Source: Duganella sp. CF402
GTDB taxonomy: Bacteria > Pseudomonadota > Gammaproteobacteria > Burkholderiales > Burkholderiaceae_D
NCBI RefSeq assembly: GCF_900109645.1
Contig: NZ_FOBG01000001.1
Location: 1,860,001-1,924,000, forward strand
DNA: 64,000 nt
Direction of reading: 5' to 3'
Part shown: piece by piece, positions 6,286 to 32,276 of the stretch
Position numbering within the stretch: position 1 is the stretch's first letter
How the letters are laid out: every line of letters begins with the position of its first letter
The notes under the pieces: generated by a model
The model's database searches: none
Told to the model about the DNA's origin: nothing
The model's input: the letters and a program-made list of their open reading frames with translations, nothing else
Position numbers and translations under genes: made by a program

Positions 6286-6287
6286 AG

Positions 6288-10924: not shown

Positions 10925-10929
10925 CGCAA

Positions 10930-11927: not shown

Positions 11928-11957
11928 ATACTATGAGAATTACAAATATCTATCCAA
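11928..11957 (-). promoter_or_regulatory. Candidate promoter of the ABC transporter operon (P1)
   Basis: On the minus strand TTGGAT (11952-11957) and TAGTAT (11928-11933) are separated by 18 bases. The predicted start near 11921 gives a leader of about 30 bases before the ytfQ ATG. The -35 box begins exactly 20 bases after the palindrome at 11978-11993. The promoters upstream of the L-arabonate dehydratase and the TonB receptor share this geometry. Confidence 0.65.
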
Positions 11958-11974
11958 TGATATTTTCGTATTCT

Positions 11975-11993
11975 TCGATATCGATTTTGATAT
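11975..11993 (-). promoter_or_regulatory. Candidate regulator-binding palindrome upstream of ytfQ
   Basis: Minus strand: ATATCAAAATCGATATCGA. The 16-base core (11978-11993) is a two-armed palindrome with a 2-base centre and one mismatched position. Its centre falls about 64 bases upstream of the predicted transcription start, the usual recognition position of LysR-type activators. It matches the site at 25946-25964 at 16 of 19 positions and resembles 32258-32276. It overlaps no coding sequence beyond touching the GH127 stop region. Confidence 0.65.
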
Positions 11994-11994
11994 A

Positions 11995-14409
11995 TCAGCG
12001 CAGCAGGCGCAGGCCGTACAAGCCGCCGGCGACCGAGTTTTCCCGCGCCACGAACTTGACGACCAGCTTGCCGGCCAGTGCGGCGCCGGCCGGAATAGCG
12101 TAGTCGCGGGTGTACAGGTCCGCAGGCGCGGTGGCGTCAAGGCGGACTTCCGCCAGCAGTTGTTCGTTGATTAAGATATCGAAGCGGCGGCCGGCGTCTG
12201 CTTTTGAGTATGTCAGCCGCAGGGTGCGGGCTTCGCCATGCTTGTCGGTCAGCTCGTAGCTAAACCAGCCGCGCGCATGGCGCCAGTGCTTGCCCTTGTT
12301 GACGCCCGCATCCGCGCCTTCGGCCTTGAAGAAGTGGTCGGACTCGGGCTGCTGCTCGCCGGGCGCCACCTGGTCGATGGTTTGGGCGTCCAGCGCGAGG
12401 CGTTCTTTTTCGTCGGCTGCGGCCTTGGCGCGGCGTTCTGCCAGGGCAGCGGGCGTGGCGTACGGCCAGTAGACCACGTAGCGCGCGTCGTGCACGCGGA
12501 AGAATGGGACGAAGGTGGTCGGGCCGCTGGCCGGCGATTGCACCAGACCCGGTGCGGTGAAGGTCAGCGGCCGACCGGGCACTGAGCGGAAGCGGCCGGC
12601 GAAGGATGCGCTCTCGCTGACCAGCACCGGCGCCTGCTCCAGCGGGCATACCGGGCCGCTGGCGATGTGCCCCATGCGGCTGTCGTCTGCCAGATAGTCA
12701 AGCTGCTCACCCGGGAATGGATTGGTTTTCGCGGCCAGCACCACGGGGCCGTGCAGTACGGCGTAGTAGTCGGATTTATCGGGCATCTGCTCGAGGCGCG
12801 TGGTCATCGGCAGGTGCAGTTCGAGCTGGTCGCCATCGCGCCATGCGCGGCGCACGTTGACGTAACGGTCGGCGCCGACGGCAGCGGCAACCGGCTTGCC
12901 GTTGACGGTGATGCGCAGCGCGCCTTGCCCCACCCATTCCGGGTAGCGGATCTTGAGCGTGAAGGTCTTGTTGCCCTTGATGGTGATGGTGCTGCGCTCT
13001 TCGTCCGGGAAGCGGTTGGACTGGCGGATTTGAACGCCCTGCTCGCGCCAGTCCAGCGTGGACGGGATGAACAGGTTGACATACAAGCTGTCGCCGCGAT
13101 GAGCGTAGATGAATTCCCCGTACTTGGCGTGGTTCTCGATACCGGAGCCGACGCAGCACCACATGGCCTTCTGCGCTTGCGAGTAGACGCGGTAGTGGTT
13201 GGGCCGCATCGGCGTGAAGTAAACGAAGCCACCGCTGTCGGGACGCTGCGAGGACAGGATATGGTTGTACAGCGCGCGCTCGTAGTAATCGGCGTAGCTG
13301 GCTTTGGCGTCACCGAGGAACAGCAGTTCGGTGAGCTTCAGCATATTGTAGGTGTTGCAGGTCTCCGGGCCTTCCACTTCCTCGATCATGGAGGTGTAGT
13401 CTTTGTCGTCGTGGAAGTGCTCACGCACGCTGTTGCCGCCGATGGCGACGGTGCGATGGTCGTGGACGGTCTGCCAGAAGAAGGCTGCGGCCTTTTGCCA
13501 GTCCTTGCGCTGCGTGATGTCGCCGATGCGTTTGAAGCCGATGACTTTCGGGATTTGCGTGTTGGCGTGCAGGCCGGTGAGCTGGTCCTTGCCCTCTTCC
13601 AGCGGCCGCAGGATGGCCTGGTGCGAGAAGCGGATGGCCAGGTCCATGTATTTCTGCTGGCCGGTCATTTGCGCGACGTCGGCCAGGACTTCGTTCATGC
13701 CGCCATGTTCGCTGCGCAGCATGGATTGCATTTGCTCTTCGGTGAGGTGCGATGTCAGCTCAAGCGTCCAGTCGCACAGGGCGATCAGCATGGTGCGGGC
13801 GTCGGCGTTGTTGGCGTGGACGTAGGCGTCGCGCAGGCCGGCGTAGGTTTTGTGGAGGTTGTACCACGGGACCCATTTGCCATTCACCGAGAAGTTGTCG
13901 GCGTGGAGCTGGCCTTGGGCGATGTCCTTCCATGCCGCCGCGCCGCCAGGGACGCCGCCGATGTAGCCGTTGCCGTTGGCTTGCTGGCAGCGTTTGAGTT
14001 CTGCAATGGTGTAGTTCAGGCGCTCGAGGACTTGCTGGTTGCCAGTGGCGGCGTACATGAGGGCCAGCGCCGATAGGTAGTGGCCGCCCATGTGGCCATC
14101 GAGGCCGGAGGATTCCCAGTTGCCGTAGCTGGGCTGCTTGAACGGCAGGCCGGCTTCGCGCAGGAATGGCACCAGCAGGCGGTCCGCATCCAGCGAGAGG
14201 ATGTAGCGCAGGTCGGTCTGTTGGGCTTCCAGGAAAGGACTCGGCCCGAGGCGCACTGCGTTCAGCGGGAATAGCGACAAGCCACCGCCCGCCGCATCCG
14301 TACGTGCGGCTGGCGTGGCGGCAAGTGCGCCGTGCGATGCAACGGTGGCGGCCGCGCCGGCAGCGAGCTTCAGCGCTCGACGGCGGGATAGCGTGCGCAA
14401 GGCGGCCAC
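11995..14409 (-). CDS. GH127 family beta-L-arabinofuranosidase-like protein
   Basis: The protein is 804 residues long from a GTG at 14409, which overlaps the previous stop as TAGTG; no good ribosome site is visible, and an ATG at 14472 lies inside the preceding gene. A Tat signal (LSRRRALKLAAGAAATVA) indicates folded export. The (alpha/alpha)6 domain is the former DUF1680. The zinc/cysteine centre of the characterised enzyme HypBA1 is conserved: Glu349 and Cys351 in GPETCNTYN, and Cys418-Cys419 in MWCCVGSG. A candidate acid lies in SVREHF. GH127 enzymes remove beta-L-arabinofuranose, notably from hydroxyproline-rich plant glycoproteins. It is the last gene of the catabolic operon. Confidence 0.9.
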   Translation of the reverse strand: MAALRTLSRRRALKLAAGAAATVASHGALAATPAARTDAAGGGLSLFPLNAVRLGPSPFLEAQQTDLRYILSLDADRLLVPFLREAGLPFKQPSYGNWESSGLDGHMGGHYLSALALMYAATGNQQVLERLNYTIAELKRCQQANGNGYIGGVPGGAAAWKDIAQGQLHADNFSVNGKWVPWYNLHKTYAGLRDAYVHANNADARTMLIALCDWTLELTSHLTEEQMQSMLRSEHGGMNEVLADVAQMTGQQKYMDLAIRFSHQAILRPLEEGKDQLTGLHANTQIPKVIGFKRIGDITQRKDWQKAAAFFWQTVHDHRTVAIGGNSVREHFHDDKDYTSMIEEVEGPETCNTYNMLKLTELLFLGDAKASYADYYERALYNHILSSQRPDSGGFVYFTPMRPNHYRVYSQAQKAMWCCVGSGIENHAKYGEFIYAHRGDSLYVNLFIPSTLDWREQGVQIRQSNRFPDEERSTITIKGNKTFTLKIRYPEWVGQGALRITVNGKPVAAAVGADRYVNVRRAWRDGDQLELHLPMTTRLEQMPDKSDYYAVLHGPVVLAAKTNPFPGEQLDYLADDSRMGHIASGPVCPLEQAPVLVSESASFAGRFRSVPGRPLTFTAPGLVQSPASGPTTFVPFFRVHDARYVVYWPYATPAALAERRAKAAADEKERLALDAQTIDQVAPGEQQPESDHFFKAEGADAGVNKGKHWRHARGWFSYELTDKHGEARTLRLTYSKADAGRRFDILINEQLLAEVRLDATAPADLYTRDYAIPAGAALAGKLVVKFVARENSVAGGLYGLRLLR

Positions 14410-15422
14410 TATTTCGCTGGCAGCTGGATGCTGCGGTATTTGTTCAGGTCTGCCTGCTCGACCGACGGCCAACCGGCGGCGTCGAATTTCATTTCCATGA
14501 TCTTCAGCTTTTGCAGGTAGTTGTCGGCCGTCTCGTAAGCGTGCAGCACCAGATAGTCTTTGCCGTCCATCGTGTAGGCGCTGTTGTGGCCCAGGCCTTT
14601 CCAGTCCTTGTCGCCGGCGATAAGCAGCGAGCCGCCGCCTTTCATCATGTCGACGCCGTTCTTATCGACATACGGCCCGGTGATGTCCTTCGAACGCCCG
14701 ACCACCACATGATAGGTACTATCGCCCTTGCGGCAACACAGCCCAAATGACGCAAACAGGTAGTAATAATCACCCTTCTTGAAAATGTAAGGCGCTTCGA
14801 TCTCGCCAACGCCGGCCTGCTCGCCCGCACCACTGGCGCCATTGGTGCGGCTGGCGATGGCGTGCCACTCCTGCGGCTCGGCCAGCGCCGTCCAATCCGC
14901 ATTCAGCTTCACCAGTTTCAGTCCGCTCCAGAAGGAACCGAAAGACATCCACGCATTGCCCTTGCCATCCTCGATCACATTCGGGTCGATGGCGTTCCAG
15001 TCGTCGCGATACGGCACCGACTGCAGCACCATGCCCTTGTCCTCCCAACGATAATCGGGCGAACGCGGGTCCAGCGTTTTATTGACGGTGACGCCGATGC
15101 CGGAGGTGTTCTTGCCAAATCCCGAAACGGAATAATACAAATAGTATCGACCGTTATGGAACTGGACGTCCGGCGCCCAGATATGACCGTCGAACGTCGG
15201 TGCAGCCTTCTTGGCCCACACCGGCTGCTCCTTGAACACGCGGCCTTCCAGCTGCCAGTTCTTCATGTCCTTTGAACTGTAGAACGTAATACCCGGCCCC
15301 GTGCTGAACACGTAGTAGGTATCGCCCTGCTTGGCCATCACCGGATCGTGCACGCTGACTTCCTTGGCCGTGCAGCCAACTGCAGCCAGCGCAAACGCCG
15401 CCGTCAATAAAACATACTTCAT
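14409..15422 (-). CDS. GH43 arabinan endo-1,5-alpha-L-arabinosidase-like protein
   Basis: This 337-residue protein has a hydrophobic export signal ending AAVGC, a possible but imperfect lipobox (Ala rather than Leu at -3). The single GH43 propeller carries VHDPV (base), WNAIDPNVI (modulator) and GVGEIEAPY (acid). The motifs FDGHIWAPDVQFHNGRYYLYYS and LGHNSAYTMDG are typical of endo-arabinanases, which cut internal alpha-1,5 bonds of arabinan. The ATG at 15422 has GAGG six bases upstream; a GTG one codon earlier is possible. It lies 12 bases after the upstream GH43 gene and overlaps GH127 by one base. Confidence 0.9.
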   Translation of the reverse strand: MKYVLLTAAFALAAVGCTAKEVSVHDPVMAKQGDTYYVFSTGPGITFYSSKDMKNWQLEGRVFKEQPVWAKKAAPTFDGHIWAPDVQFHNGRYYLYYSVSGFGKNTSGIGVTVNKTLDPRSPDYRWEDKGMVLQSVPYRDDWNAIDPNVIEDGKGNAWMSFGSFWSGLKLVKLNADWTALAEPQEWHAIASRTNGASGAGEQAGVGEIEAPYIFKKGDYYYLFASFGLCCRKGDSTYHVVVGRSKDITGPYVDKNGVDMMKGGGSLLIAGDKDWKGLGHNSAYTMDGKDYLVLHAYETADNYLQKLKIMEMKFDAAGWPSVEQADLNKYRSIQLPAK

Positions 15423-15434
15423 CACCTACCTCGT

Positions 15435-17003
15435 TTAGTTGCCAGTCCGTGCGCCCCAGATGGACACACCGTCCACCGATTGCGCCGTCCACGTCACCAC
15501 GAACGCGCTGGCGTTGGTATTCCACTGACGCGACAACACGCCAACGAAAGTCCCGGTCGCGCCGAGCGAAATGGTGATCTTGTTGCTGCCATCGTGCTTC
15601 CACGTGCCGCTGGCGGATCCGGACACCGTGCCATTCGCCGCCAGCACCACTTCCTGCGAAGCCTTGATGGTGGTCGAAATGTCTTTGCCGTGATTGATCA
15701 TCTTGTACGTGCCCGCCGCATCGGCCGCAGTCACCTCGGCCGACAAGGTGGTCGCGTTCTTGCTCAGCGGCGCGTAACGGAACGGCGCCACCACTGGCCA
15801 ACCGTCGGCATTGATGAACATCTCGTGCACGCGGATCTGGTGCAGCTCTCCCGTACCAGGGAAGCGGGTATGGAAGATCAGGAAGTACTGGCCAGTCGAC
15901 GGCTCGTAGTAGGCCGAGTTGTGGCCCGGCGATACGTAGCCCAGCGGCGTGCCGGTCTCGCCAGCCGCCAGCGCGAACTGGTGGTTGCCCATGATCTTCT
16001 GGCCAAACGGCGCGATGGTCGCATCGTCGAACAGCGGCAGCGCGGGATTCGACTTGACGTTGGCCATGTCGTTGCCCTTCGCGTCCAGGTACGGACCGTC
16101 CGGATTCAGCGAACGCGATACACGCATGTTGTACGCGCCGTTGGCATCCAGCCCGCCAAAGGACGTGAACATGTAGTAGTACTTGGACTGCGGGCTATAC
16201 AGCACATACGCGCCTTCGATGCGGCTGTGGTTCCCGCCGATCAGGTGCTTGCCGTAGCCCTGCCCCGGCTTTTGCAGGCCGGTGCTGGTGTCCATCTCGA
16301 GGATGAAGATGCCGCCCGAGTACGAGCCGTAGATCATCCACAGCTTGCCCTGCTGGTCGAAGAAGGTGTTCGGATCCACCACGTTCGGCATGGTCAGCGC
16401 GTCGTAGATGGTGACGCCGTCTTCGCCCGGCCCGCCCCAGTTGCCCGACTTGAGCAGGATTTGCTTGTTGACGTATGGGCCTTCTACCTTGTCCGCCACC
16501 GCGAGACCCAGCGCCGAGCGCGGGGAGTCGCCCTTGCAGGCGCAGTAGTAGTGATAGAACTTGCCGTCGGCGAGCTTCACCACATCCGGCGCCCACAGGT
16601 CCGTCACCTGTGCCCAGGCGAAGGTGTCGGCCAGTGAGGTCACCACGTTGTTGAACAACGGGTTGGCCGCGTTGACGCCGTCGGCGATCTTGGTCCAGTT
16701 CATCAGGTCCGTCGACTTGGCGGCGGCGAGGTGCGAACCAAACACGTAGAACGTGCCGTCCACCTTAATCACGGATGGATCGTGTACCGAAGCGTCCATG
16801 AATGTGATGCTGGTTGGCGTTGGCGTTGGCGTCGGCGTTGGCGTCGGCGTTGGTGTCGGAGTAGGCGTCGGCGTTGGAGTGGGCGTCGGCGTCGGGGTAG
16901 GCGTTGGCGTAGTGCCACCGCCACCGCCGCCGCAACCGGCCAGCACCAACGCCACGCCGCCGGCCGAAATGACCTTCCGGCGAGTGATGTTGATATCGTC
17001 CAT
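15435..17003 (-). CDS. GH43 lipoprotein with Thr-Pro linker, endo-arabinanase-like
   Basis: This 522-residue protein starts with a twin-arginine-like signal (ITRRKVISAGGVALVLAGC) ending in a good lipobox, LAGC, so it should be a membrane-anchored lipoprotein. After a Gly run, a linker of about 17 Thr-Pro units projects the catalytic domain from the membrane. The GH43 domain (about residues 65-415) has SVHDPSVIK as the base region and RIEGAYVLY around the probable acid. Residues about 420-522 form a beta-rich C-terminal domain ending WTAQSVDGVSIWGAR, as in extended endo-arabinanases (GH43_C type). The gene ends 12 bases before the next GH43 gene. It probably attacks polymeric arabinan at the cell surface or in the periplasm. 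Confidence 0.9.
   Translation of the reverse strand: MDDINITRRKVISAGGVALVLAGCGGGGGGTTPTPTPTPTPTPTPTPTPTPTPTPTPTPTPTPTSITFMDASVHDPSVIKVDGTFYVFGSHLAAAKSTDLMNWTKIADGVNAANPLFNNVVTSLADTFAWAQVTDLWAPDVVKLADGKFYHYYCACKGDSPRSALGLAVADKVEGPYVNKQILLKSGNWGGPGEDGVTIYDALTMPNVVDPNTFFDQQGKLWMIYGSYSGGIFILEMDTSTGLQKPGQGYGKHLIGGNHSRIEGAYVLYSPQSKYYYMFTSFGGLDANGAYNMRVSRSLNPDGPYLDAKGNDMANVKSNPALPLFDDATIAPFGQKIMGNHQFALAAGETGTPLGYVSPGHNSAYYEPSTGQYFLIFHTRFPGTGELHQIRVHEMFINADGWPVVAPFRYAPLSKNATTLSAEVTAADAAGTYKMINHGKDISTTIKASQEVVLAANGTVSGSASGTWKHDGSNKITISLGATGTFVGVLSRQWNTNASAFVVTWTAQSVDGVSIWGARTGN
16814..16911 (-). repeat. Hexanucleotide tandem repeat encoding the Thr-Pro linker
   Basis: About 16 imperfect GGCGTT/GGCGTC/GGAGTN units on the plus strand encode alternating Thr and Pro in the GH43 lipoprotein. 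Silent third-base changes break up the repeat. The unit is six bases, so gain or loss of units keeps the frame and changes only linker length. Confidence 0.9.
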
Positions 17004-17007
17004 GAGC

Positions 17008-18549
17008 TTACTCCACTGCCACCACGATCACGGCCTTGGCAGGCACTTTGACCGTCAGTTTGCCGTCGGCGCCGGCGGTGGCGCTGAACGCTGCAGGCTT
17101 GATCGCTTGCGGCGCGGCGAAGGTGTTGTGCGTATCCATCGCGGTGGAGGTCAGCACGCGGCCTTTCACAGCCTTCACGCTTTGGCCAGGAATATTCAGC
17201 GCGACATCCGAAGCCTTGTTCGGATTGGTGTTTACCAGCGCCACATACAGTTTGCCGTCGGTGCCGCGCGCGGCCGATGCGCTGATCTCAGGCACCTTCA
17301 CGTTGCCGACGCTGTAGTCCGGATTGTCCTTCAGCGACACCGGCAGCGAGGTCGCGTTCTGGAACGGCACATACATCTGGTACGCGTAGTAGGTCGGGGT
17401 CAGGATCATCTTGTCCTTGTCGGTGATGATCATCGCCTGCAGCACGTTGACCATCTGCGCGATATTGGTCATGCGCACGCGGTCCGCGTGAGCGTGGAAG
17501 ATGTTGAAGTTAAGCGCAGCGACAACCGCATCGCGCAGGGTGTTCTGCTGGAACAGGAAGCCAGGATTGGTGCCCTTTTCCACGTCGTACCAAGTGCCCC
17601 ACTCGTCCACGAACAGGCCCAGTTTCTTCTCCGGATCGTGCTTGTCCATTACGGCGGTGTTCTTCTGGATGTGGTCTTCCATGCGCAGCGTGTTGGACAT
17701 GGTGGAGATCCACTCGTTTTCCTGGAAGCCGGTCGAGGCGCCCTTCACTTCCCATTTACCGGTCGGCAGGGTGTAGTAGTGGAAGCTGATGCCGCTGGTC
17801 TGGTTCTTCAGCTGCTTGCTCAGCACATCGGTCCAGGTCACGTCATTGTCGTTGCCGCCGCTGGCGATGATCTGCGGGCGGTACTGCTTCGGTGCGCGCA
17901 GGAAGGTCTCGGCTTGCTTGTACAGGTCCGAGTAGTACTGCGGGCTCATATTGCCGCCGCAGCCCCACGCCTCGTTACCGACCGCGAAGTAGGCCACCTT
18001 GAACGGCTTGTCGCGGCCATTCTTGCGTCGCATATTGGCCAGCGTGGATTTGCTGTCGGAGGTCATGTACTCGACCCACTCCGACATTTCTTGCGAGCTG
18101 CCGGTGCCAAGGTTGCCGTTGACGTAGGCGTCCGCACCCAGCAGGTCGACCAGGTCAAAGAATTCATGCGTGCCGACAGCGTTGGATTCGTCCACGCCGC
18201 CCCAGTTGGTGTTGACCTTGACCGGTCGCTTCTCGCGCGGGCCTACGCCGTCGCGCCAGTGGTATTCGTCGGCAAAGCAGCCTCCCGGCCAGCGCACCAG
18301 CGGCACCTTGATGTCTTTCAGCGCGCCGACCACGTCGTTGCGCCAGCCCTTGGTGTTGGGGATCTTCGATTTAGGGCCGACCCAGATACCTTCGTAGATG
18401 CCGGTACCAAGGTGCTCGGCGAACTGGCCGTAAACGTCCTTGTTAATCACCGCGCCCGGCTTGGCCGCGTCGATGGTCAGTTCAACAGCGAATGCGCTGC
18501 CGGAAGCCAGCATGCACAGTGCGAGGACACCACGTTTGATTGGATTCAC
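17008..18549 (-). CDS. GH51 alpha-L-arabinofuranosidase, exported
   Basis: This 513-residue protein matches the usual GH51 length: a catalytic (beta/alpha)8 barrel followed by a C-terminal beta-sandwich. The acid/base is Glu193 in AVGNEAWGCGG and the nucleophile Glu316 in LFVDEWGTWYD, both in standard motifs. The enzyme removes terminal alpha-L-arabinofuranose from arabinan and arabinoxylan oligosaccharides with retention. Unlike many bacterial GH51 enzymes, it has a clear signal peptide (RGVLALCMLASGSAFA), so it acts outside the cytoplasm. It lies between GH97 (18-base gap) and the GH43 lipoprotein (4-base gap), within the catabolic operon. Confidence 0.94.
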   Translation of the reverse strand: MNPIKRGVLALCMLASGSAFAVELTIDAAKPGAVINKDVYGQFAEHLGTGIYEGIWVGPKSKIPNTKGWRNDVVGALKDIKVPLVRWPGGCFADEYHWRDGVGPREKRPVKVNTNWGGVDESNAVGTHEFFDLVDLLGADAYVNGNLGTGSSQEMSEWVEYMTSDSKSTLANMRRKNGRDKPFKVAYFAVGNEAWGCGGNMSPQYYSDLYKQAETFLRAPKQYRPQIIASGGNDNDVTWTDVLSKQLKNQTSGISFHYYTLPTGKWEVKGASTGFQENEWISTMSNTLRMEDHIQKNTAVMDKHDPEKKLGLFVDEWGTWYDVEKGTNPGFLFQQNTLRDAVVAALNFNIFHAHADRVRMTNIAQMVNVLQAMIITDKDKMILTPTYYAYQMYVPFQNATSLPVSLKDNPDYSVGNVKVPEISASAARGTDGKLYVALVNTNPNKASDVALNIPGQSVKAVKGRVLTSTAMDTHNTFAAPQAIKPAAFSATAGADGKLTVKVPAKAVIVVAVE

Positions 18550-18567
18550 TCTCAGTCTCCTTGGGTT

Positions 18568-20577: not shown

Positions 20578-21345
20578 TTACACCCAGCCTGCGTCGACGA
20601 TGAATTCCTGAGCGGTACACATGGCGCCATCATCGGCAGCCAGGAACAGCACCATCGATGCCACGTGCTGCGGCATCAGTTTGTTTTGCAGGCACTGGTT
20701 ACGCTTGATATCCTGCTCGCCGGCGTCGTCCAGCCACAGGTCGATCTGGCGCTGGGTCATCACCCAGCCCGGCGTGACGGTGTTGACGCGGATGCCGTGG
20801 GCGCCGTACTCGCGCGCCAGGCCACGGGTCAGGCCGTGCACTGCGGCCTTGGTGGTGGCGTAGGCCGGGTAGCCGGCGTTCTTCACGTGCCACGAGATCG
20901 AGCCGACGTTGATGATGGAGCCAGCTCCCTTCTTCTTCATGCCTTCCAGGACCGCCTGGCAAGTGAAGAACATCGGGCGCTGGTTGATGGCGATGCACTT
21001 GTCCCAGAATTCCTGCGTGACTTCGGCGGTGTCGTGGCGCTGGTCGTTGGCGGCGTTGTTGACGAGGATGTCGAAGTCGCCGATCAGGCCAGCCATTTCG
21101 GTCATGGTGGCTTGCAGTGCCGGGATGTCGGTGATGTCGCACTGGCGGAACAACGGCTCGGGATAGCCGGCTTCCTTCACACGGCGAATCAGCGCGAGGC
21201 TGGCGTCGCGCGCGATGTCGACGAAGGCCACTTGCGCGCCCTGCTCCGCAAAGGAAATCACCATCGCTTCACCGATGCCGGTGCCGCCGCCAGTAATGAA
21301 TACGCGCTTGCCGCGCAGGCTGCCAAACTTGGCCAGTTGGGTCAT
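20578..21345 (-). CDS. SDR-family dehydrogenase, probable L-arabinose 1-dehydrogenase
   Basis: This is a classical 255-residue short-chain dehydrogenase. The nucleotide loop is TGGGTGIG (residues 18-25), NNAA follows at 97-100, and the catalytic residues are Ser149, Tyr162 and Lys166 (YATTK). The C-terminus has the standard ending FIVDAGWV. The ATG at 21345 follows AGGAGACTGT; an upstream extension would read through a REP repeat and is rejected. It sits with the three later enzymes of oxidative arabinose breakdown, so oxidation of L-arabinose to L-arabinonolactone is the likely job. Galactose or another aldose could also be used. Confidence 0.85.
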   Translation of the reverse strand: MTQLAKFGSLRGKRVFITGGGTGIGEAMVISFAEQGAQVAFVDIARDASLALIRRVKEAGYPEPLFRQCDITDIPALQATMTEMAGLIGDFDILVNNAANDQRHDTAEVTQEFWDKCIAINQRPMFFTCQAVLEGMKKKGAGSIINVGSISWHVKNAGYPAYATTKAAVHGLTRGLAREYGAHGIRVNTVTPGWVMTQRQIDLWLDDAGEQDIKRNQCLQNKLMPQHVASMVLFLAADDGAMCTAQEFIVDAGWV

Positions 21346-21362
21346 ACAGTCTCCTGTTATCC

Positions 21363-21433: not shown

Positions 21434-21443
21434 GACGGGTCTT

Positions 21444-24001: not shown

Positions 24002-24016
24002 ATGAATCTCCTTGCC

Positions 24017-24086
24017 GTCGCCCCGGCGAAGGCCGGGGTCCATGCTGAGCATGCGTTCTATGGGTCCCGGCCTGCGCCGGGACGAC
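24017..24086. repeat. Paired REP-like palindromes
   Basis: Palindromes CCCCGGCGAAGGCCGGGG (about 24021-24038) and GTCCCGGCCTGCGCCGGGAC (about 24064-24083) flank a spacer containing ATGCTGAGCAT. This is the same family as the pair at 21363-21433. It lies between the L-arabonate dehydratase stop and the AraD1 ribosome site, inside the operon. Confidence 0.85.
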
Positions 24087-24092
24087 GTGGGT

Positions 24093-25835
24093 TTAGTGCG
24101 AGTGACGTGGAACGGCCGAACCGCGATTACCGACCAGGAAGTCGAAGTCGCAGCCTTCGTCCGCTTGCAGCACGTGCTCGATGTACAGCTGCTGGTAGCC
24201 GGTCTTCGGACCTGGCGCGCTGCCTGCCACGCGGGCGGCCTGGCGTGCGGCGATTTCTTCGTCCGACACTTCCAGATTCAACTGACCGCCTGCGCAATCG
24301 AGCGTGATGTAGTCGCCATCCTTGACGATGCCCAGCGGACCGCCGGCCATCGCTTCCGGCGCCACGTGCAGCACCACCGTGCCATACGCCGTACCGCTCA
24401 TGCGCGCATCCGAAATACGCACCATGTCTTTCACGCCCGCTGCCAGCAACTTGGGCGGCAGGCCCATATTGCCTACTTCCGCCATGCCCGGATAACCTTT
24501 CGGGCCGCAGTTCTTCATCACCAGGATGGAGTCTTTATCGACGTCCAGGTTCGGATCCATGATGCGCGACTTGTAGTGTTCGAAGTCTTCAAACACCACG
24601 GCCTTGCCGCGATGCTGCATCAGTTCCGGCGTTGCGGCCGATGGCTTCAGCACCGCGCCGCGCGGCGCCAGGTTGCCGCGCAAGATGCAGATGCCGCCGT
24701 CCTTGCGGATCGGGTTGTCCAGCGTGCGGATCACTTCTTCGTCGTAGATCGGCGCATCCACGCAGTTTTCCCAGATGGTCTTGCCGTTGACGGTCAGCGC
24801 GTTCGGGTGCGGCAGGATGTTACCGTCGCCCATGCGGCGGATTACGCCCGGCAGGCCGCCGGCGTAGTAGAACTCTTCCATCAGGAAGCGGCCCGATGGC
24901 AGCAGGTCGACGATGGTCGGGGTGCCGCGGCCGACACGGGTCCAGTCTTCCAGTTCCAGATCCACGCCGATACGGCCGGCGATGGCTTTCAGGTGGATCA
25001 CGGCGTTGGTCGAACCGCCGATGGCGGCGTTGACGCGGATCGCGTTTTCAAAATTCTCTTTGGTCAGGATCTTCGACAGCTTCAGGTCCTGCTTCACCAT
25101 CTCGACGATGCGGATGCCCGACATGTGGGCCAGCACGTAGCGGCGCGCGTCGACAGCTGGGATGGCGGCATTGTGCGGCAGCGAGGTGCCCAGCGACTCG
25201 GCCATGCAGGCCATCGTCGAGGCAGTGCCCATCGTGTTGCAGGTGCCGGCGGAACGCGAGTGGCCCGCTTCGGCGCCAATGAACTCGTGCATCGAGATTT
25301 CACCGGCTTTGACTTGTTCGTGCAGCTGCCAGACGGCGGTGCCGGAACCGATATTTTTGCCGTTCAGTTTACCGTTCAGCATCGGGCCGCCGGTAACAAC
25401 GATGGTCGGAATGTCGACCGAGGCAGCGCCCATCAGCAGCGCCGGAGTGGTCTTGTCGCAGCCGACCAGCAGCACCACGCCGTCCATCGGATTGCCGCGG
25501 ATCGATTCTTCCACGTCCATCGAGGCGAGGTTACGGGTCAACATGGCGGTCGGACGCAGGTTCGATTCGCCGTTGGAGAATACTGGGAATTCAACCGGGA
25601 AGCCGCCGGCTTCGTAGATGCCGCGCTTGACGTGTTCCGCCAGTTTGCGGAAGTGGGCGTTGCATGGGGTCAGTTCGGACCAGGTATTGCAGATGCCGAT
25701 AATCGGCTTGCCTTCGAATTCGTGATCAGGGATGCCCTGATTCTTCATCCAGCTCCGGTACATGAAGCCGTTTTTGTCTTGGGTACCAAACCACTCGGCG
25801 GAGCGCAGCTTCACCTTTTTGTCATTCTCAGACAT
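24093..25835 (-). CDS. IlvD/EDD-family dehydratase, probable L-arabonate dehydratase
   Basis: This 580-residue protein belongs to the IlvD/Edd sugar-acid dehydratases. The three Fe-S ligands are visible as Cys58 (NTWSELTPCNAHF), Cys128 (LVGCDKTTPALL) and Cys201 (GTCNTMGTAST), at almost the same positions as in characterised L-arabonate dehydratase. It converts L-arabonate to 2-keto-3-deoxy-L-arabonate in the cytoplasm. The ATG at 25835 follows GAGGAGAAATGC; the 18-codon upward extension lacks support. It is first in the catabolic operon, behind promoter P2 and the strongest copy of the palindromic site. Confidence 0.93.
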   Translation of the reverse strand: MSENDKKVKLRSAEWFGTQDKNGFMYRSWMKNQGIPDHEFEGKPIIGICNTWSELTPCNAHFRKLAEHVKRGIYEAGGFPVEFPVFSNGESNLRPTAMLTRNLASMDVEESIRGNPMDGVVLLVGCDKTTPALLMGAASVDIPTIVVTGGPMLNGKLNGKNIGSGTAVWQLHEQVKAGEISMHEFIGAEAGHSRSAGTCNTMGTASTMACMAESLGTSLPHNAAIPAVDARRYVLAHMSGIRIVEMVKQDLKLSKILTKENFENAIRVNAAIGGSTNAVIHLKAIAGRIGVDLELEDWTRVGRGTPTIVDLLPSGRFLMEEFYYAGGLPGVIRRMGDGNILPHPNALTVNGKTIWENCVDAPIYDEEVIRTLDNPIRKDGGICILRGNLAPRGAVLKPSAATPELMQHRGKAVVFEDFEHYKSRIMDPNLDVDKDSILVMKNCGPKGYPGMAEVGNMGLPPKLLAAGVKDMVRISDARMSGTAYGTVVLHVAPEAMAGGPLGIVKDGDYITLDCAGGQLNLEVSDEEIAARQAARVAGSAPGPKTGYQQLYIEHVLQADEGCDFDFLVGNRGSAVPRHSH

Positions 25836-25898
25836 GCATTTCTCCTCAGTATTTTCCTGTGCAGGGACGTGAATGTCATGTCCCCGCATCGATAAGGC

Positions 25899-25928: not shown

Positions 25929-25945
25929 TAAATTGTTTATCGATA

Positions 25946-25964: not shown

Positions 25965-25966
25965 AC

Positions 25967-27025
25967 CTAGACGGTGGTGAAGCGGTAAGCCATCACCGTG
26001 CTGTACTCCTCGCCCGGACGCAGGATCGTCGACGGGAAATCAGGACGATTCGGCGAATCCGGGAAGTGCTGCGGTTCGAGGCAAAAGCCGCTGCGATGAC
26101 CGTAGATGCGCCCTTTTCCACTGACCGAGTCGTTCAGGAAGTTCCCGCTGTAGAACTGGATGCCCGGCTCCTGCGACAGCACTTCCAGCACACGGCCCGA
26201 CGACGGATCGACCACCCGGGCCGCCAGTTCCAATGCGCCCGGAGCAGATTTATTCAGCACGAAGTTGTGGTCGTAGCCGGAACCGAGTGCCAGCTGCGCA
26301 TCTTGCTGATCGATGCGCGCGCCGATGGCGGTCGCGCTGCGGAAGTCGAACGGCGTGCCGGCTACTGGCGCCGGCGCACCGACCGGAATCAGGCCGGGAC
26401 CGACCGGGGTGATGGCGTCGGCCGGGATAGTCAGCTCGTGGCCCAGGATGTCGCCCTTGCCGGCGAGGTTGAAGTAGGCGTGGTTGGTCAGGTTCATCGG
26501 CGTGGCCTTGTCGGCCACGGCGTGGAAGGCGATGCGCAATTCGTTATTGTCGCGCAGCTCGTAGATGGCGGTGATTTCGGCGGTGCCGGGATAACCCTGG
26601 TCGCCGGCGATGCTCAAATAAGTCAGGATCACGCCCGCCGATTTCGGCGTGGTGAAGATTTCGGCCTCCCACAGCTGGCGGTGGAAGCCATCGGCGCCGC
26701 CGTGCAGGTGGTTGACGCCATCGTTGACGTCCAGCTGCCAGGTCTCGCCGTCCAGCGTGAAGCGGCCGTTGGCGATGCGGTTGCCATAGCGGCCGATCAG
26801 CGCGCCGAAGTACTCCGATTTACCGAGGTAGGCGTCGACGTTGTCGAAGCCGTGGCAGACGTCGGCCAGCACGCCGTCGCGGTCCGGCACGTGCAGTTCC
26901 GTGATCACGCCGCCAAGGTTGCTGATCTTGGCGATCATGCCGTTGGCGTTGGTCAGGGTGTAGAGGGTGGCTGCGCGGCCGTCCGGCAGCTGGCCAAATG
27001 GGGATTCGGTGATCGTTGCTTGCAT
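25967..27025 (-). CDS. galM: Aldose 1-epimerase (mutarotase)
   Basis: This 352-residue cytoplasmic beta-sandwich protein of the GalM family contains the family's catalytic and binding residues: IGRYGNRIANGRF, VNHLHGGADGFHRQLW (first His), MNLTNHAYFNLAG (His), GYDHNFVL (Asp) and a C-terminal Glu region (TILRPGEEYSTVMAYRF). It interconverts the anomers of aldoses, here presumably L-arabinose, to supply the form used by the dehydrogenase. It is the last gene of the TonB-receptor operon, separated from the GH43 gene by a hairpin. No lactonase gene accompanies it. Confidence 0.93.
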   Translation of the reverse strand: MQATITESPFGQLPDGRAATLYTLTNANGMIAKISNLGGVITELHVPDRDGVLADVCHGFDNVDAYLGKSEYFGALIGRYGNRIANGRFTLDGETWQLDVNDGVNHLHGGADGFHRQLWEAEIFTTPKSAGVILTYLSIAGDQGYPGTAEITAIYELRDNNELRIAFHAVADKATPMNLTNHAYFNLAGKGDILGHELTIPADAITPVGPGLIPVGAPAPVAGTPFDFRSATAIGARIDQQDAQLALGSGYDHNFVLNKSAPGALELAARVVDPSSGRVLEVLSQEPGIQFYSGNFLNDSVSGKGRIYGHRSGFCLEPQHFPDSPNRPDFPSTILRPGEEYSTVMAYRFTTV

Positions 27026-27044
27026 GTTGACTCTCTAATGACAA

Positions 27045-27075
27045 GGCGGCCGAGAGGTTCCCCTGCTCGGCCGCC
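27045..27075 (-). other. Intercistronic hairpin
   Basis: GGCGGCCGAG (27045-27054) and CTCGGCCGCC (27066-27075) form a perfect 10-bp stem with an 11-base loop between the GH43 and mutarotase genes. No run of T follows on the minus strand, so it looks more like an RNA-stability or partial-termination structure than a full terminator. Confidence 0.6.
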
Positions 27076-27097
27076 GGAATATGTGCGCTCGCTTATT

Positions 27098-28045
27098 TTA
27101 GGCGATCGACGGCTTTCCGAAAACGGGCATACCCTGCTCGTCCCACTTCAGCGGTTTAACGTAGGTGTGACGGTCCGGATTCCACAGCGGGTCGCCGATA
27201 ATCTCGGTGTAGGTGCGTGCATGATAAACCAACATGACAGTTTCGCCATCATCGCCAACGGTGAAACTGTTGTGGCCGGGGCCATACACCTTGTGCTCGA
27301 AGCAGGTCTGCAGCACCGGCTCCTTGGCCTTGGTCCACGACTTCGGATCCATCACGTCGGCGTTTTCGTCCGCCCACAGCAGGCCCATTGCGTAGTTCTC
27401 GTCGGTGGCGCTGGCCGAATAGCTGAGGAAGATCTTGCCGTTCTTTTTGAGGATGGACGGACCTTCGTTGACCCAGAAGCCGCGAATCTCCCAGTCGAAT
27501 TCCGGCTTGCTCAGCATGACCGGCGCACCGCCCAGCTGCCACGGCGTTTTCATCGGCGCGATGTAGATGTTGGAGTTGCCCTCGATGGCGTTGTCCTTCT
27601 GCGCCCACACGTAGTACAGCTGATCCTTGTGGGTGAAGGTGGTGGCGTCCAGGCAGAAGGTGTCGATGCCGGTGTCGATCTGGCCTTTGAACTCCCACTC
27701 GCCTTCCAGCGGATTGGCGGCGGCGGTGCTGATCGCGTACATGCGGTGCTGGAACAGCTTGTACTTGATCTCGCGGCTAGGCGCGGCGGCGAAGTAGACA
27801 TACCACGCGCCCTGGTTGAAGTGCAGCTCGGGCGCCCAAACCAGTTCGCTGTACGGGCCAGTATCGGGCTTGCGCCAGACGGTGACCTTCTCGGCGTCGA
27901 CAAGGCCGGCGATGGTCTTGGCGCGGCGCAGTTCAATGCGGTCGTACTCCGGCACCGAGGCGACGAAGTAGTAATAGCCGTCGGTGTGGCGATAAATATG
28001 AGGATCGGCGCGCTGCTCGATCAGCGGGGTGAGGATGTTTTCCAT
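27098..28045 (-). CDS. Intracellular GH43 protein, arabinofuranosidase-like
   Basis: This 315-residue GH43 propeller has no signal peptide from the chosen ATG (28045, with GGAA upstream), so it should act in the cytoplasm on imported oligosaccharides. QRADPHIYRH carries the base Asp, DTFCLDATTF the modulator region and WVNEGPSIL a candidate acid Glu. GPGHNSFT is also typical. It lies 16 bases after the GPH symporter gene, which fits a pair that imports and then trims short arabino-oligosaccharides. Exo-alpha-L-arabinofuranosidase is the best guess; beta-xylosidase cannot be excluded. Confidence 0.88.
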   Translation of the reverse strand: MENILTPLIEQRADPHIYRHTDGYYYFVASVPEYDRIELRRAKTIAGLVDAEKVTVWRKPDTGPYSELVWAPELHFNQGAWYVYFAAAPSREIKYKLFQHRMYAISTAAANPLEGEWEFKGQIDTGIDTFCLDATTFTHKDQLYYVWAQKDNAIEGNSNIYIAPMKTPWQLGGAPVMLSKPEFDWEIRGFWVNEGPSILKKNGKIFLSYSASATDENYAMGLLWADENADVMDPKSWTKAKEPVLQTCFEHKVYGPGHNSFTVGDDGETVMLVYHARTYTEIIGDPLWNPDRHTYVKPLKWDEQGMPVFGKPSIA

Positions 28046-28061
28046 TTCAAGTTCCAAAAAA

Positions 28062-29414
28062 TTAGACTGCCACATAGCCTTTCGCTCCCATCTCTTCCTT
28101 GACCTGCGCGTAGTAGCCGTCGTTGAGGCGGTACTTGAACATGAGCAGGCCCATGACGGTATGGAAGAAGCCAGGAATCAGCGTCATCATCAGCACGATG
28201 CCGTGCAATGCGAAATCGGTTTGCTCAACGTTGGGTACATAGGCGAAGTACGCCAGCAGCTTGCCGACCACGATGCCGGCGATGCCCATACCGGCCTTCT
28301 GGCAGACCGAGATGCCGCCGAAGGCGAAGCCGGAGACGCGCTTGCCGGTCTTGAGCACGCCGTAGTCGATGGTCTCGGCGATGGCCGACCAGAACACCGG
28401 CGCGTGCAGGTCCACCACGAAGGACAGCAGGAAGTACAGCACGAAGGCCAGCGCCACGTCGCCCGGCTTGACCAGGAAGTAGATGGCGGCGCTGATCAGG
28501 CCCACAGCGATCTGGGTCCAGCGGAACAATTTGATCTTGCAGTAAAACTTGGTGATCCAGGTCGATGCCACCATCGACAGAATGGCCGCCACCACGCCGG
28601 TCGACAGGAATGCCGAGATCAAGGCGGCATCGGCATGCAGGTAGTATTTGGCGTAGTAGATGGCCACCGAACCGCGCAGCACATAGCCCACAGTGCCGGT
28701 GATGCACACGCCGCACAGGATCAGCCACTGGTCGTTGCGCACCAGGACTTTGATTTGCTCCCACAGCGGCTGGCGCTTGATTTCGTGCTGCACGCGCTCC
28801 TTGGTGGTGAAGAAGCAGAACAGGAACAGCGCCACGCCCATCGCCGCCATCACCGCCATCGCCAGCTCATAGCCGGCAGCCGCGTTGCCGTGGCCCAGGC
28901 GTTCGGACAGCAGCGGCACGATCACGGTCACCATGAAGGCGCCGATCTTGGCGAAGAACAGGCGGTAGCCGTTGGCCGACAGGGTTTCCTGCGGATCCTT
29001 GGACAGCACGCTAGGCAGCGAGATATAGGGAATGCCCACGCCCGCCGTCATGACGGTCATGATGATGTAGGTGGAATAAGCCCACACCAGTTTGGCGCTG
29101 TAGTCCCAGTCCGGCGTGAGGAACACGAAGAACACGCTGACGCCGTAAGGCACGGCCAGCAACAGCAGCCACGGACGATAACGTCCCCAGCGCATGGTGA
29201 CGCGGTCGGTGATCTGGCCCATCACCAGATCGGCCATCGCGCCGACAAATTTCACGACACCAAACATCAGCGCCAGGTCCGTGGTCTTCAAGCCGTAGAT
29301 ATCGGTGTAGAAGAAGGTAATGATCAACATCATCGACGAGATCACCACATTCAGCGCCATGTCGCCCGCGCCAAAACCGATTTTCTCCAGCACCGACATT
29401 TTTTGATTCGACAT
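28062..29414 (-). CDS. GPH-family sugar:cation symporter
   Basis: This 450-residue, 12-helix MFS-superfamily protein resembles the glycoside-pentoside-hexuronide symporters (MelB, XylP, XynB). The N-terminus EKIGFGAGDMALN and the loop MGQITDRVTMRWGRYRPWLL are family hallmarks. It would take up pentosides or oligosaccharides in symport with Na+ or H+. The ATG at 29414 follows GAGG; a 23-codon extension reads through an intergenic hairpin and is rejected. It lies between the TonB receptor and the cytoplasmic GH43, so the order is outer-membrane import, inner-membrane import, hydrolysis. Confidence 0.92.
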   Translation of the reverse strand: MSNQKMSVLEKIGFGAGDMALNVVISSMMLIITFFYTDIYGLKTTDLALMFGVVKFVGAMADLVMGQITDRVTMRWGRYRPWLLLLAVPYGVSVFFVFLTPDWDYSAKLVWAYSTYIIMTVMTAGVGIPYISLPSVLSKDPQETLSANGYRLFFAKIGAFMVTVIVPLLSERLGHGNAAAGYELAMAVMAAMGVALFLFCFFTTKERVQHEIKRQPLWEQIKVLVRNDQWLILCGVCITGTVGYVLRGSVAIYYAKYYLHADAALISAFLSTGVVAAILSMVASTWITKFYCKIKLFRWTQIAVGLISAAIYFLVKPGDVALAFVLYFLLSFVVDLHAPVFWSAIAETIDYGVLKTGKRVSGFAFGGISVCQKAGMGIAGIVVGKLLAYFAYVPNVEQTDFALHGIVLMMTLIPGFFHTVMGLLMFKYRLNDGYYAQVKEEMGAKGYVAV

Positions 29415-29435
29415 CGTGACTACCTCAAAGTGCGA

Positions 29436-29467
29436 GGCCGCGCCCTCGCTCAGGCGGGGACGCGGCC
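29436..29467 (-). other. Intercistronic hairpin after the TonB receptor gene
   Basis: GGCCGCG (29436-29442) pairs with CGCGGCC (29461-29467), and partial pairing continues inside the loop. It separates the TonB receptor stop from the symporter start. It lacks a T-tract and probably tunes mRNA stability, allowing much higher receptor expression than symporter expression. Confidence 0.5.
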
Positions 29468-29495
29468 GATTTGCATCAACCAAGCTTCAACTTAC

Positions 29496-32150
29496 TCAGA
29501 TCTTCCAGTTCAGGAACAGGCCAACCGAACGATCGTATTTACGCGTATCGCGTGGATACAGGTTCTTGTCGTTCCAGTAGTCGGTGTACTTGAAGTTCAA
29601 CAGGTTGGTGCCGGTCAGGGTGATCGAGGTGTTCTCGTTGATCTTGTAGCCCAGCGAACCATCCAGCGAAGACATCGGCGATGCGATCAGGTCCTTGCCG
29701 TCGCCGGTATCATTGTAGACCTGGGTGAACTTCGAGCGCCAGTTGTAGGCCAGGCGGCCCGAGACGCCATACTTCTCATACAGCGCCACCACGTTGTACG
29801 ACCATTTCGACATGCCGGCGAACGGCTTGCCGTTGGCTGCATTGTCCACCACCGAGGAGGTGGTGGTCTTGCCTTCAGTGTAGGTCGCATTCGCCTCTAC
29901 GCCAAAGCCGCTCATCCAGCCCGGCAGCTTGTCGAAGAAGCTGCGGTACGATACTTCTGCGCCTTGCAGGTAACCGTCGTCGGTGTTGAACGGACGATTG
30001 GTGTCATACACCACACCGTCGAAGGTCTCCTTGACCTTCTTGGTCATGATGTAGCCTTTGAACTCGTGGCGGAACAGCGCGACACTGGCCATGCCGGTCG
30101 ACGAGAAATACCACTCCAGCGAGCCGTCGTAGTTACGCGCGGTGAACGGCTTCAGGTCCGGATTGCCGCCGCTTGCCGATGCCTCCACCGTATTGCCGTT
30201 GGGTTTAATATAGGCGGTGCCTGGATTCAGCTGCGCGAAATCCGGACGGGTCATCGTCTTGGTCACGGAGAAGCGGCCGATCACGTCGTCACGCAGTTGC
30301 AGCTTGAAGTTTGCGCTCGGCAGATACGCCGTGTCACTGCCGCTGCTACCGGTATCGACATACGTGGTGGGCTGACCTACAACGCTGATGCCAAGTTTGC
30401 CGAGCAGTTTGGAATCGGTCTTGGTGACGCGCATACCGAGCACGCCATCGACCGGAATGCCGGCCACTTCCCAGCCCAGATGGGCCTTGCCGTACAAGGC
30501 GTAGTTCTTTTCCTCGTCGGCGAAGTACGAGCCGGGATCGATCGCCTTGGCAGCGCTGCTGCCAGTGACGGCCTTGCGCACGGCGGCGGTGTTGGTAATC
30601 AGGTAGTCCGCGCATGGGGTGTACCACGAGGTGGTGCCCCAGTTGTTTTGCATCTGCGCGGTGCAGCTCATGCCTTGCAGCGAAGCGGCGCTGACGCCAG
30701 CCGTTGCCGGCACCGAGCCTTCGAGCGACTTGATCGACGCGGCGGTGCGCTTGGCGGCGCGCACGCCGAAACCGAAGTCCTTGAACAGACCCTCGTCCTG
30801 CAGGGTGTAGGTGCCGTCGGCGCGCCAGTCGGTCGATGCGCCCTGGTCGTGGCCATAGCGGTCGAACAGCTGCGACAGCGTGTACTTCGACGGATCGTTC
30901 AGATCCATGCCGCCGTAGGCGACGTAGGAGCTGCCGCCGACATTGGTGTTCACGTTCGCGTTCGGCACGTTGGTGATGGTGTCGAGGATAGGATTCTGCC
31001 AGTCGTAGTCCGACAGCGTGCGGGCAAGCTCGGTGCTCAGGCGCAGGCCCGGCGCAGCATTCCAGCGGCCGCCGATGGCGTGCTGCTGGGTCACGTTGCT
31101 GGCGCGGTTGGCCTGGGTCGACATGATGGTGTTGACGTTGTGCGAATTGAGCGTCTGCAGTTGGTCCGAACCCGGGATTTTGGTGGCGGTCATTTGATCG
31201 CCCGGGCCCCACCACGGCAGGCCGACGAAGAAGTCGGTCTCGAAATTGTTCAGGTAGTGCGAAGACAAGCCTTCCGCATACACTTCAACGTCGCTGTTCG
31301 GTTTCCACTGCAAGGCGTAGTTGGCGGCGCTGCGGCGGCGGTCGCCCTTGATGCTTTCCAGGCCCACCAGGTCAGGACCGGTCAGATTCGGCAGCAGCCA
31401 GTTCTTGTTGATCGGTTTGGTGTTGAAAACGCGTTCTTCGGTGTAGTGGTTGCGCAGATAAGACACGCCAACCAGGGCGCCGAATTCGCCGATGTCGGTT
31501 TTCCAGCGGTTCGAGATCATGCCGCTGACGTTGGGGTCGGTGCGCTCGGCCTGCGAGTTGTTGGTGGCGCCTCCATTGACCACGGCGGTGAAGCCCTTGA
31601 AGTCGAACGGACGGTTGGTGCGCACGTCGATCACGCCGGCGATGCCGCCCTCGGGCAGGTCCGCACTCTGCGATTTGTACACGTCCACGCGCTGCAGCAT
31701 GGTCGACGGGATATCGGCCAGCTGGATGTAGCGGCCGACGGTGCTGAACATCTCACGGCCGTTCAGCAGCGTGGCGATGCCCGGCAAGCCGCGGATCAGC
31801 ACGGTGTTGGCTTCGCCGCCGTCGCGGCGCACTTGCACGCCGGTGACGCGGGCGATGGTTTCGGCCACGTTGGTGTCCGGGAATTTACCAATATCGTCGG
31901 CGACGATGGAGTCGATAACGTTATCTGCATCCTTCTTGATCTTCTGGGCGCTTTGCGCGGCGCGGCGAACACCGGTCACGGTCACGGTCGATTGTTCGGC
32001 CACGGCGGCCACTGGGGTATCGCCAGCCTGCTGGGCCATTACCGGGAGGGCATTCAGCAGGCCTGCGGCTGCCAGCACGGCAACGCCGGATTTCAGGACG
32101 AGACGATGCTTGGCCTGGGACTCGCAAGTCCCGGATACGGTGTGTTTCAT
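29496..32150 (-). CDS. TonB-dependent receptor, carbohydrate type
   Basis: This 884-residue outer-membrane receptor has an extended signal peptide ending near LNALPVMAQQ. The TonB-box region is TVTVTGVRRAAQSA. The plug contains DTNVAETIARVTGVQVRRDG and VLIRGLPG, and a long beta-barrel ends in the aromatic-terminal strand SVGLFLNWKI. The motif SIVADDIGKFPDTN is typical of receptors in proteobacterial carbohydrate-utilisation loci. It presumably imports arabinan or arabinogalactan oligosaccharides. The ATG at 32150 follows GGAGACCT; an in-frame ATG at 32210 overlaps the predicted promoter. It is the first gene of its operon, with a 217-base upstream region. Confidence 0.93.
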   Translation of the reverse strand: MKHTVSGTCESQAKHRLVLKSGVAVLAAAGLLNALPVMAQQAGDTPVAAVAEQSTVTVTGVRRAAQSAQKIKKDADNVIDSIVADDIGKFPDTNVAETIARVTGVQVRRDGGEANTVLIRGLPGIATLLNGREMFSTVGRYIQLADIPSTMLQRVDVYKSQSADLPEGGIAGVIDVRTNRPFDFKGFTAVVNGGATNNSQAERTDPNVSGMISNRWKTDIGEFGALVGVSYLRNHYTEERVFNTKPINKNWLLPNLTGPDLVGLESIKGDRRRSAANYALQWKPNSDVEVYAEGLSSHYLNNFETDFFVGLPWWGPGDQMTATKIPGSDQLQTLNSHNVNTIMSTQANRASNVTQQHAIGGRWNAAPGLRLSTELARTLSDYDWQNPILDTITNVPNANVNTNVGGSSYVAYGGMDLNDPSKYTLSQLFDRYGHDQGASTDWRADGTYTLQDEGLFKDFGFGVRAAKRTAASIKSLEGSVPATAGVSAASLQGMSCTAQMQNNWGTTSWYTPCADYLITNTAAVRKAVTGSSAAKAIDPGSYFADEEKNYALYGKAHLGWEVAGIPVDGVLGMRVTKTDSKLLGKLGISVVGQPTTYVDTGSSGSDTAYLPSANFKLQLRDDVIGRFSVTKTMTRPDFAQLNPGTAYIKPNGNTVEASASGGNPDLKPFTARNYDGSLEWYFSSTGMASVALFRHEFKGYIMTKKVKETFDGVVYDTNRPFNTDDGYLQGAEVSYRSFFDKLPGWMSGFGVEANATYTEGKTTTSSVVDNAANGKPFAGMSKWSYNVVALYEKYGVSGRLAYNWRSKFTQVYNDTGDGKDLIASPMSSLDGSLGYKINENTSITLTGTNLLNFKYTDYWNDKNLYPRDTRKYDRSVGLFLNWKI

Positions 32151-32210
32151 AGGTCTCCAGTAGTGTCTGTTTTTCTTAGGAGCGGCGAGGGGGAGCGCCG
32201 TCTGGAGCAA

Positions 32211-32240
32211 ATCTTAGGTGCTGGGGGAAAAACAAACCAA
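32211..32240 (-). promoter_or_regulatory. Candidate promoter of the TonB receptor operon (P3)
   Basis: Minus strand TTGGTT (32235-32240), 18-base spacer, TAAGAT (32211-32216). The -35 box is again exactly 20 bases after the upstream palindromic site. The predicted leader is about 54 bases. Confidence 0.55.
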
Positions 32241-32257
32241 TCAATTTTTGGCGGTTT

Positions 32258-32276
32258 TCGATACCAAAAAAGATAT
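32258..32276 (-). promoter_or_regulatory. Weaker copy of the arabinose-locus palindrome
   Basis: Minus strand ATATCTTTTTTGGTATCGA. It keeps the ATATC left arm and the TATCGA right end of the sites at 11975-11993 and 25946-25964. Two positions of the right arm differ (TTGGTAT instead of TCGATAT). Its spacing to the -35 box is identical to theirs. Confidence 0.5.

Follow-up and report, generated by a model that had tools for sequence, protein, structure and literature searches.

A candidate LysR-type regulon for arabinan and L-arabinose use in Duganella sp. CF402

Gene content of the locus

We analysed a 64,000-nt stretch of the genome of Duganella sp. CF402 (contig NZ_FOBG01000001.1; the whole stretch is called the window, and positions are counted from its first letter), and we describe three promoter regions on its minus strand, P1, P2 and P3, together with a linked LysR-type gene that is their candidate common regulator. 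Judged by protein family, the minus strand from ~32.2 to 5.3 kb is a cluster for arabinan and L-arabinose use, and the nearest named relatives of the locus are Duganella species. Its genes can be divided into three putative transcription units, with boundaries predicted from the sequence. The P3 unit begins with a TonB-dependent receptor gene (29496–32150) and continues with genes for a GPH sugar symporter, a glycoside hydrolase (GH) of family GH43 and an aldose epimerase (25967–29483). The P2 unit is headed by an L-arabonate dehydratase family gene (24093–25835), which is followed by genes for AraD1/GguC, an aldehyde dehydrogenase and an SDR sugar dehydrogenase (20578–24052; the true SDR and AraD1 starts lie inside the longest frames), by a GH97 gene, a GH51-type arabinofuranosidase gene (matched in its C-terminal domain), a GH43 gene with a C-terminal domain and a further GH43 gene (14409–20493), and at its end by a gene of the GH127 beta-L-arabinofuranosidase family (11995–14472). 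REP-like (repetitive extragenic palindrome-like) GC-rich repeats of the CCGGCCTTCGCCGG type lie between P2-unit genes at 21361–21434 and 24015–24090, and lengthen the longest SDR and AraD1 frames at their N-termini.

The P1 unit encodes a sugar ATP-binding cassette (ABC) transporter, and its first three genes, for a YtfQ-like sugar-binding protein (10930–11889), a YtfR-like ATPase (9389–10924) and a YtfT-like permease (8269–9396), are named after their best models, each at a score under the cut-off of that model. A YjfF-like permease gene (7268–8260, start approximate; PF02653, named from gene order) comes next, and a GH43 gene (6288–7244) and the LysR-type regulator gene (5347–6285), both identified by profile searches, end the unit. 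The LysR protein has an N-terminal HTH_1 domain (PF00126) and a C-terminal LysR_substrate domain (PF03466), both above gathering scores, and it scored 198 bits against PcaQ (TIGR02424), its best NCBIfam model, which is under the cut-off of 303.8; it hit no GbpR model.

Three promoter regions with one composite signature

All three promoter regions lie on the minus strand and are built from the same elements. P1 (11928–11993), upstream of ytfQ with its ATG at 11889, has the palindrome ATATCAAAATCGATAT, a gap of 20 nt, TTGGAT, a spacer of 18 nt and TAGTAT; P2 (25899–25964), upstream of the L-arabonate dehydratase gene with its ATG at 25835, has the palindrome ATATCGATTTCGATAT, the same gap, TTGGAA, the same spacer and TAGTAT; and P3 (32211–32276), upstream of the TonB receptor gene with its ATG at 32150, has the palindrome ATATCTTTTTTGGTAT followed at identical distances by TTGGTT and TAAGAT. 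The preliminary description of the locus had claimed exactly this shared architecture with its fixed 20-nt gap, a palindrome centre near −65 and P3 as the weakest copy, and each of these points was borne out by the searches below. LysR-type regulators have a recognition site near −65 and an activation site near −35. At P1, P2 and P3 an inverted repeat is centred near −65 relative to the predicted starts at 11921, 25892 and 32204; the palindrome centre precedes the −35 hexamer by 28 nt, counted to its first base, and would stand at about −64 provided that the hexamers are correctly assigned. Moreover, the −35 hexamer of P1 is poor, TTGGAT matching TTGACA at 3 of 6 positions, as is expected of an activated promoter.

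We then expressed the full composite as ATATC-N6-GRTAT-N20-TTGGWW-N18-TARKAT with both spacings fixed, and used the same pattern reversed as the control. The 6.24-Mb genome contains three perfect matches, which are P1, P2 and P3, and none to the reversed control; up to three mismatches add only two composites genome-wide (one with one mismatch and one with two), again with none for the control. Within the window, ATATC-N4-TYGRTATCGA has three matches with zero mismatch. The palindrome alone (ATATC-N6-GRTATCGA) has five zero-mismatch sites in the genome, and 45 matches against 1 for the control when one mismatch is allowed, and it was rejected as a signature since its matches are scattered, one exact match being inside a coding frame (L005) and another lacking the second block. 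The latter site (G000:C2:3753607; L145 6611), without TTGG at +20, lies between genes for a TonB receptor and a glucarate-dehydratase-like protein, ~4 kb from a LysR paralogue of 36% identity, and possibly belongs to a related regulon of that paralogue.

Conservation of the signature among relatives

To describe the P1 site in relatives we used 80 lysR loci, 68 of which have a usable ytfQ upstream region. The gap between palindrome and TTGG is exactly 20 nt in 67 of these 68 regions (for one locus the gap search gave a tie), and the exception, L107, has no ATTGG. Among 58 distinct P1 sequences the outermost palindrome bases and an AAAA-N4-ATTGGAT-N4-AT block are nearly fixed, and six columns inside the 20-nt gap carry at most 0.2 bit; a fixed gap over columns of such low information points to a constraint on spacing. 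Most of columns 27 to 47, which make up the second block, are conserved as well. This conserved TTGG block extends past the −35 box, so it is probably also an activation half-site.

A matrix was built across both blocks from the P1 sites of the relatives only. Applied to the 64-kb window it scored P1 at 74.4, P2 at 50.3 and P3 at 41.0, so conservation is strongest at P1, and the next site reached 4.4 (at most 3.1 in 20 locally shuffled windows). The matrix also carried over to other genomes. In a family sample of 195 genomes from 44 genera, 40 of 68 regions upstream of dehydratase orthologues scored above the maximum of 1,360 shuffles, and 67 of these 68 genomes have the LysR orthologue. The ytfQ upstream regions of 20 further genomes of the family, picked by hand from 60 genomes with ytfQ, all scored between 30.3 and 56.7, with 14.8 as the highest score among 1,000 shuffles; these regions include those of five genomes of one genus (g27) without the strict composite.

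Co-occurrence of the signature and the LysR gene

Across the family sample we counted composites with at most two mismatches and LysR orthologues at E ≤1e-100. The composite is present in 59 of the 195 genomes and the reversed control in none of the 195, and the LysR orthologue is present in 70, which include all 59 genomes with a composite; hence the 125 genomes without a LysR orthologue have no composite at this threshold. Each set spans 11 of the 44 genera, the same genera by comparison of the two tables. In a wider sample of 300 genomes of the order, eight genomes match the composite, five of them LysR-positive and three LysR-negative. The latter three (G254, G261 and G372) have two mismatches each and are taken as chance matches, their downstream genes not having been looked at.

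Outside the family, two genomes carry a site in the interval that separates lysR from a divergently oriented gene (G310 and G442, with LysR identities of 49 and 54%), and in G442 an unlinked dehydratase gene, whose product is 80% identical, is preceded by a further site. These sites beside lysR, taken with the unlinked dehydratase site, are the strongest pointer to LysR as the protein that would bind. Likewise, in locus L088 a site is located between lysR and the dehydratase gene.

Sites beyond the window

The preliminary description had also attributed all arabinose genes of this strand to the three promoters. This stands for the contiguous cluster and fails genome-wide, as the architecture precedes at least three related genes elsewhere; the predicted regulon thus exceeds three promoters, with looser copies at other loci. 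These are located before a GH3 gene (C4:607334, one mismatch to the full composite, matrix score 18.1), a TonB-receptor gene (C2:902377, two mismatches, a strong 43.9) and a GH43 gene (C2:512321, poorer palindrome, no −10 match, 29.1), and a second genome of the genus again has the GH3 and TonB-receptor sites, in front of genes that are 92% identical. A loose pattern of palindrome, gap and TTGG has 26 matches in the genome against 12 for its reversed control and was rejected as a signature on its own because it is not specific. By matrix, six of the 26 score above 5.5, and these are P1, P2, P3 and the three copies just named, while the other 20 score at most 5.5 (their genes were not looked at); as far as this goes, equally spaced sites scattered before unrelated genes were not found.

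For other genomes we inspected 20 regions that were picked to span genera, nearly all of them taken from among the composite matches listed, and that are not a random draw. They hold 26 sites, and 17 of the downstream genes resemble by blastp the gene set of the window or the extra targets in its genome (one of the 17, a GH97 gene, at only 26% identity). Six further genes encode a TonB receptor, two ChvE proteins, a porin, a GH35 enzyme and an alpha-galactosidase, one encodes an aldo/keto reductase, and two are unassigned. Genome G117 has composites before a GH35 gene with ricin-type lectin domains and before an alpha-galactosidase gene (L194 and L196), hinting that its regulon may also take in galactan or galactoside use. 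In other genera, genes for ChvE-type sugar-binding proteins follow a second block of variant sequence (GTGATTAGTA or GTGATTGGTG; L192, L195 and similar loci), which may be read either by the same LysR protein or by a paralogue of shifted specificity.

A predicted operator at lysR and its loss by deletion

Besides the target promoters, the palindrome is found at lysR itself. It lies within 75 nt 5′ of lysR in 64 of the 80 relatives' loci, compared with 9 of 800 random stretches, and its centre is mostly 14–26 nt from the start. None of these 64 loci has TTGG at +20 of the palindrome; a site of this kind would more probably serve repression than activation. In the window, the ATG of lysR is two bases past the stop codon of the GH43 gene and the palindrome is absent there, whereas Duganella radicis has 56 bases between the two genes, palindrome included, a difference of 54. 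The palindrome is likewise lost in Duganella rivi and Duganella flavida, which stand with the window on one side of a branch (20-row tree, support 86/86, moderate), and one deletion event is sufficient to explain a loss shared on one side of a branch. In total, 16 of the 80 loci have no palindrome of at least 9/10 at lysR; the placement in the tree covered two of them, L033 and L036, which group with the window. By comparison of these sequences, the window clade has lost the predicted lysR operator by a 54-base deletion, and the older state with the operator kept is represented by the close relatives Duganella radicis and Duganella sp. SG902.

As for its consequence, lysR in the window clade would be expressed from the P1 transcript, probably with translational coupling to the GH43 gene, and this would create positive feedback. 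We tentatively suggest, at somewhat less than even confidence, that the deletion took the operator together with the promoter region and fused lysR to GH43, so that a separately controlled and probably self-repressing regulator became the last gene of the operon that it activates, and negative autoregulation gave way to positive feedback.

A probable single LysR regulon and its alternatives

We regard it as highly probable that P1, P2 and P3 share one regulator, the LysR protein encoded at 5347–6285, and would form one regulon. The single LysR regulon proposed in the preliminary description is favoured by the invariant spacing, the transfer of the P1 matrix, the one-way co-occurrence with LysR, the palindrome at lysR in most loci and the sites beside lysR in another family. 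LysR, presumably as a tetramer, would sit on the ATATC-N6-GRTAT palindrome at about −64 as its recognition site, and would reach to the conserved downstream TGATTGGAT-N2-TATC block, overlapping the poor −35 hexamer, as its activation site. When L-arabinose or one of its breakdown products is bound, LysR would activate uptake across the outer membrane through the TonB receptor, cleavage of arabinan and arabinosides, import by the ABC transporter and the GPH symporter, and oxidation via L-arabonate. A small number of unlinked genes for GH enzymes and receptors would be targets too.

Several results weigh against this reading. The hexamers proposed for P1 are absent from the output of a generic sigma-70 promoter scan (4800–12500), which gave a different pair within the P1 region, at the background frequency. 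No site above the shuffle maximum was found by matrix in 28 of the 68 dehydratase upstream regions. These failures are G133, which has a degraded site in place, G097, in which no LysR orthologue reached the threshold, and 26 genomes that belong to genera g15, g27 and g29. Among the matches listed, 12 of 15 g15 and g29 genomes have a composite 4.4–4.7 kb farther 5′ of the dehydratase gene on the same strand, where the operon headed by the site seems to be longer (in G117 the site stands before a ChvE gene), and no composite at that distance is among those listed for G028, G112 and G130; this check covered g15 and g29, the remaining 11 of the 26 being g27 genomes. Moreover, 11 of the 70 LysR-positive genomes of the family have no composite at two mismatches, namely 10 of the 11 sampled g27 genomes and G094, and the five of those 10 that were scored have drifted P1 sites before ytfQ. 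The composite is also lacking in 9 of the 14 LysR-positive genomes of the order sample, and the three of these that were fetched have weaker sites by matrix (25, 28 and 36). Fisher's test for the co-occurrence gave p = 4e-39 with the kinship of the genomes ignored, and this value overstates independence because relatives share ancestry. Finally, the GH3 and GH43 copies are modest by matrix, and the latter has no −10 match; and because the 36% LysR paralogue lies near another exact palindrome, a palindrome by itself does not identify the regulator that binds it.

The whole locus may instead be one long transcript from P3, with P1 and P2 as minor internal promoters or operators. All genes are on the same strand, P2 and P1 start 2–3 nt past the preceding stop codons, and no terminator-like site of the minus strand was seen near P1 (only 4800–12500 was scanned), which fits such a transcript; P1 is nevertheless the most strongly conserved site, and some relatives have sites of the P1 or P2 type with none of the other units on the 5′ side, as at the unlinked dehydratase gene of G442 and between lysR and the dehydratase gene in L088, so we consider this arrangement unlikely.

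If the assignment to the linked LysR were wrong, the palindromes would be bound by a different LysR paralogue or by some unlinked protein from another regulator family, and the linked LysR would have a different target. The 36% paralogue (C2:3748853) has one exact palindrome at its locus, and aligned LysR paralogues have many helix-turn-helix residues in common. However, that palindrome has no TTGG at +20, the composite at up to two mismatches is confined within the family sample to genomes with the linked LysR orthologue, and the palindrome is found at lysR itself in 64 of the 80 loci and beside it in G310 and G442, which together make a different binder quite improbable. The 43% LysR paralogue was rejected as the regulator, as its 19-kb neighbourhood contains no composite; the palindromes there have one mismatch each and lack TTGG at +20. 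Chance convergence of three matches in the gaps between genes, which are AT-rich and at P2 contain overlapping TATCGATA-like units, is negligible in view of the shuffles, the empty reversed controls in this genome and in each of the 195, and a 20-nt gap that is invariant across diverged sequence.

One feature outside the cluster is an open frame of 1342 aa on the plus strand of the window (33980–38008), in which Pfam domains of AMP-binding enzymes match only the first 514 residues and the remainder has no match.

Relation to known systems and implications

Very probably this system is a LysR-type regulon for L-arabinose, with good support from comparison; it is orderly and, for a sugar regulon, fairly ordinary. 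Its closest parallels are here drawn by description. AraR of Halomonas, a LysR-family protein, is the predicted regulator of the divergent araMFGHCY genes (mutarotase, ABC transporter, dehydratase and dehydrogenase) and of its own gene (PMC5507952); it is likened to our system as a LysR regulator of oxidative L-arabinose genes, not by motif or orthology. It differs in that the section on this regulator names no glycoside hydrolases or TonB receptor under AraR, and AraR itself is a prediction only (PMC5507952). GbpR of Agrobacterium is a LysR regulator of the sugar-binding protein gene chvE that responds to sugars (PMC4086400), and the likeness is again one of description, a LysR protein with a sugar-binding protein gene, and not of site or sequence. 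Two relatives have a similar site before genes for proteins that pass NCBI's ChvE cut-off; none of the six sites in the Duganella sp. CF402 genome precedes chvE, which itself was not searched for. Roseobacter litoralis has a putative gbpR, by annotation only, beside genes for a sugar ABC transporter and L-arabonate dehydratase, a gene set like the present one by description, and it differs in that no regulator sites are described in the passages on it (PMC3141670).

Compared with LysR-type regulators generally, the palindrome centre at about −64, the second block over the −35 box and the palindrome at the regulator's own gene in most loci are as expected. Unlike them, lysR of the window clade stands last in one of its own presumed target operons, with its own operator deleted.

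Text searches, in which most papers were judged by their listing and subscription journals were mostly outside the scope, found no described arabinan or L-arabinose system for Oxalobacteraceae or these Burkholderiales. For Oxalobacteraceae and some other Burkholderiales, the present analysis supplies a candidate regulator of arabinan and L-arabinose use, a predicted binding signature of 42 positions and a list of targets. Where the substrate of a GH, TonB-receptor or transporter gene is unknown, the signature may help with its annotation. Moreover, the loss of the lysR operator between sister species makes the rewiring of feedback directly testable in soil bacteria that are harmless, and such a rewiring, if true, could make arabinose induction switch-like or bistable.

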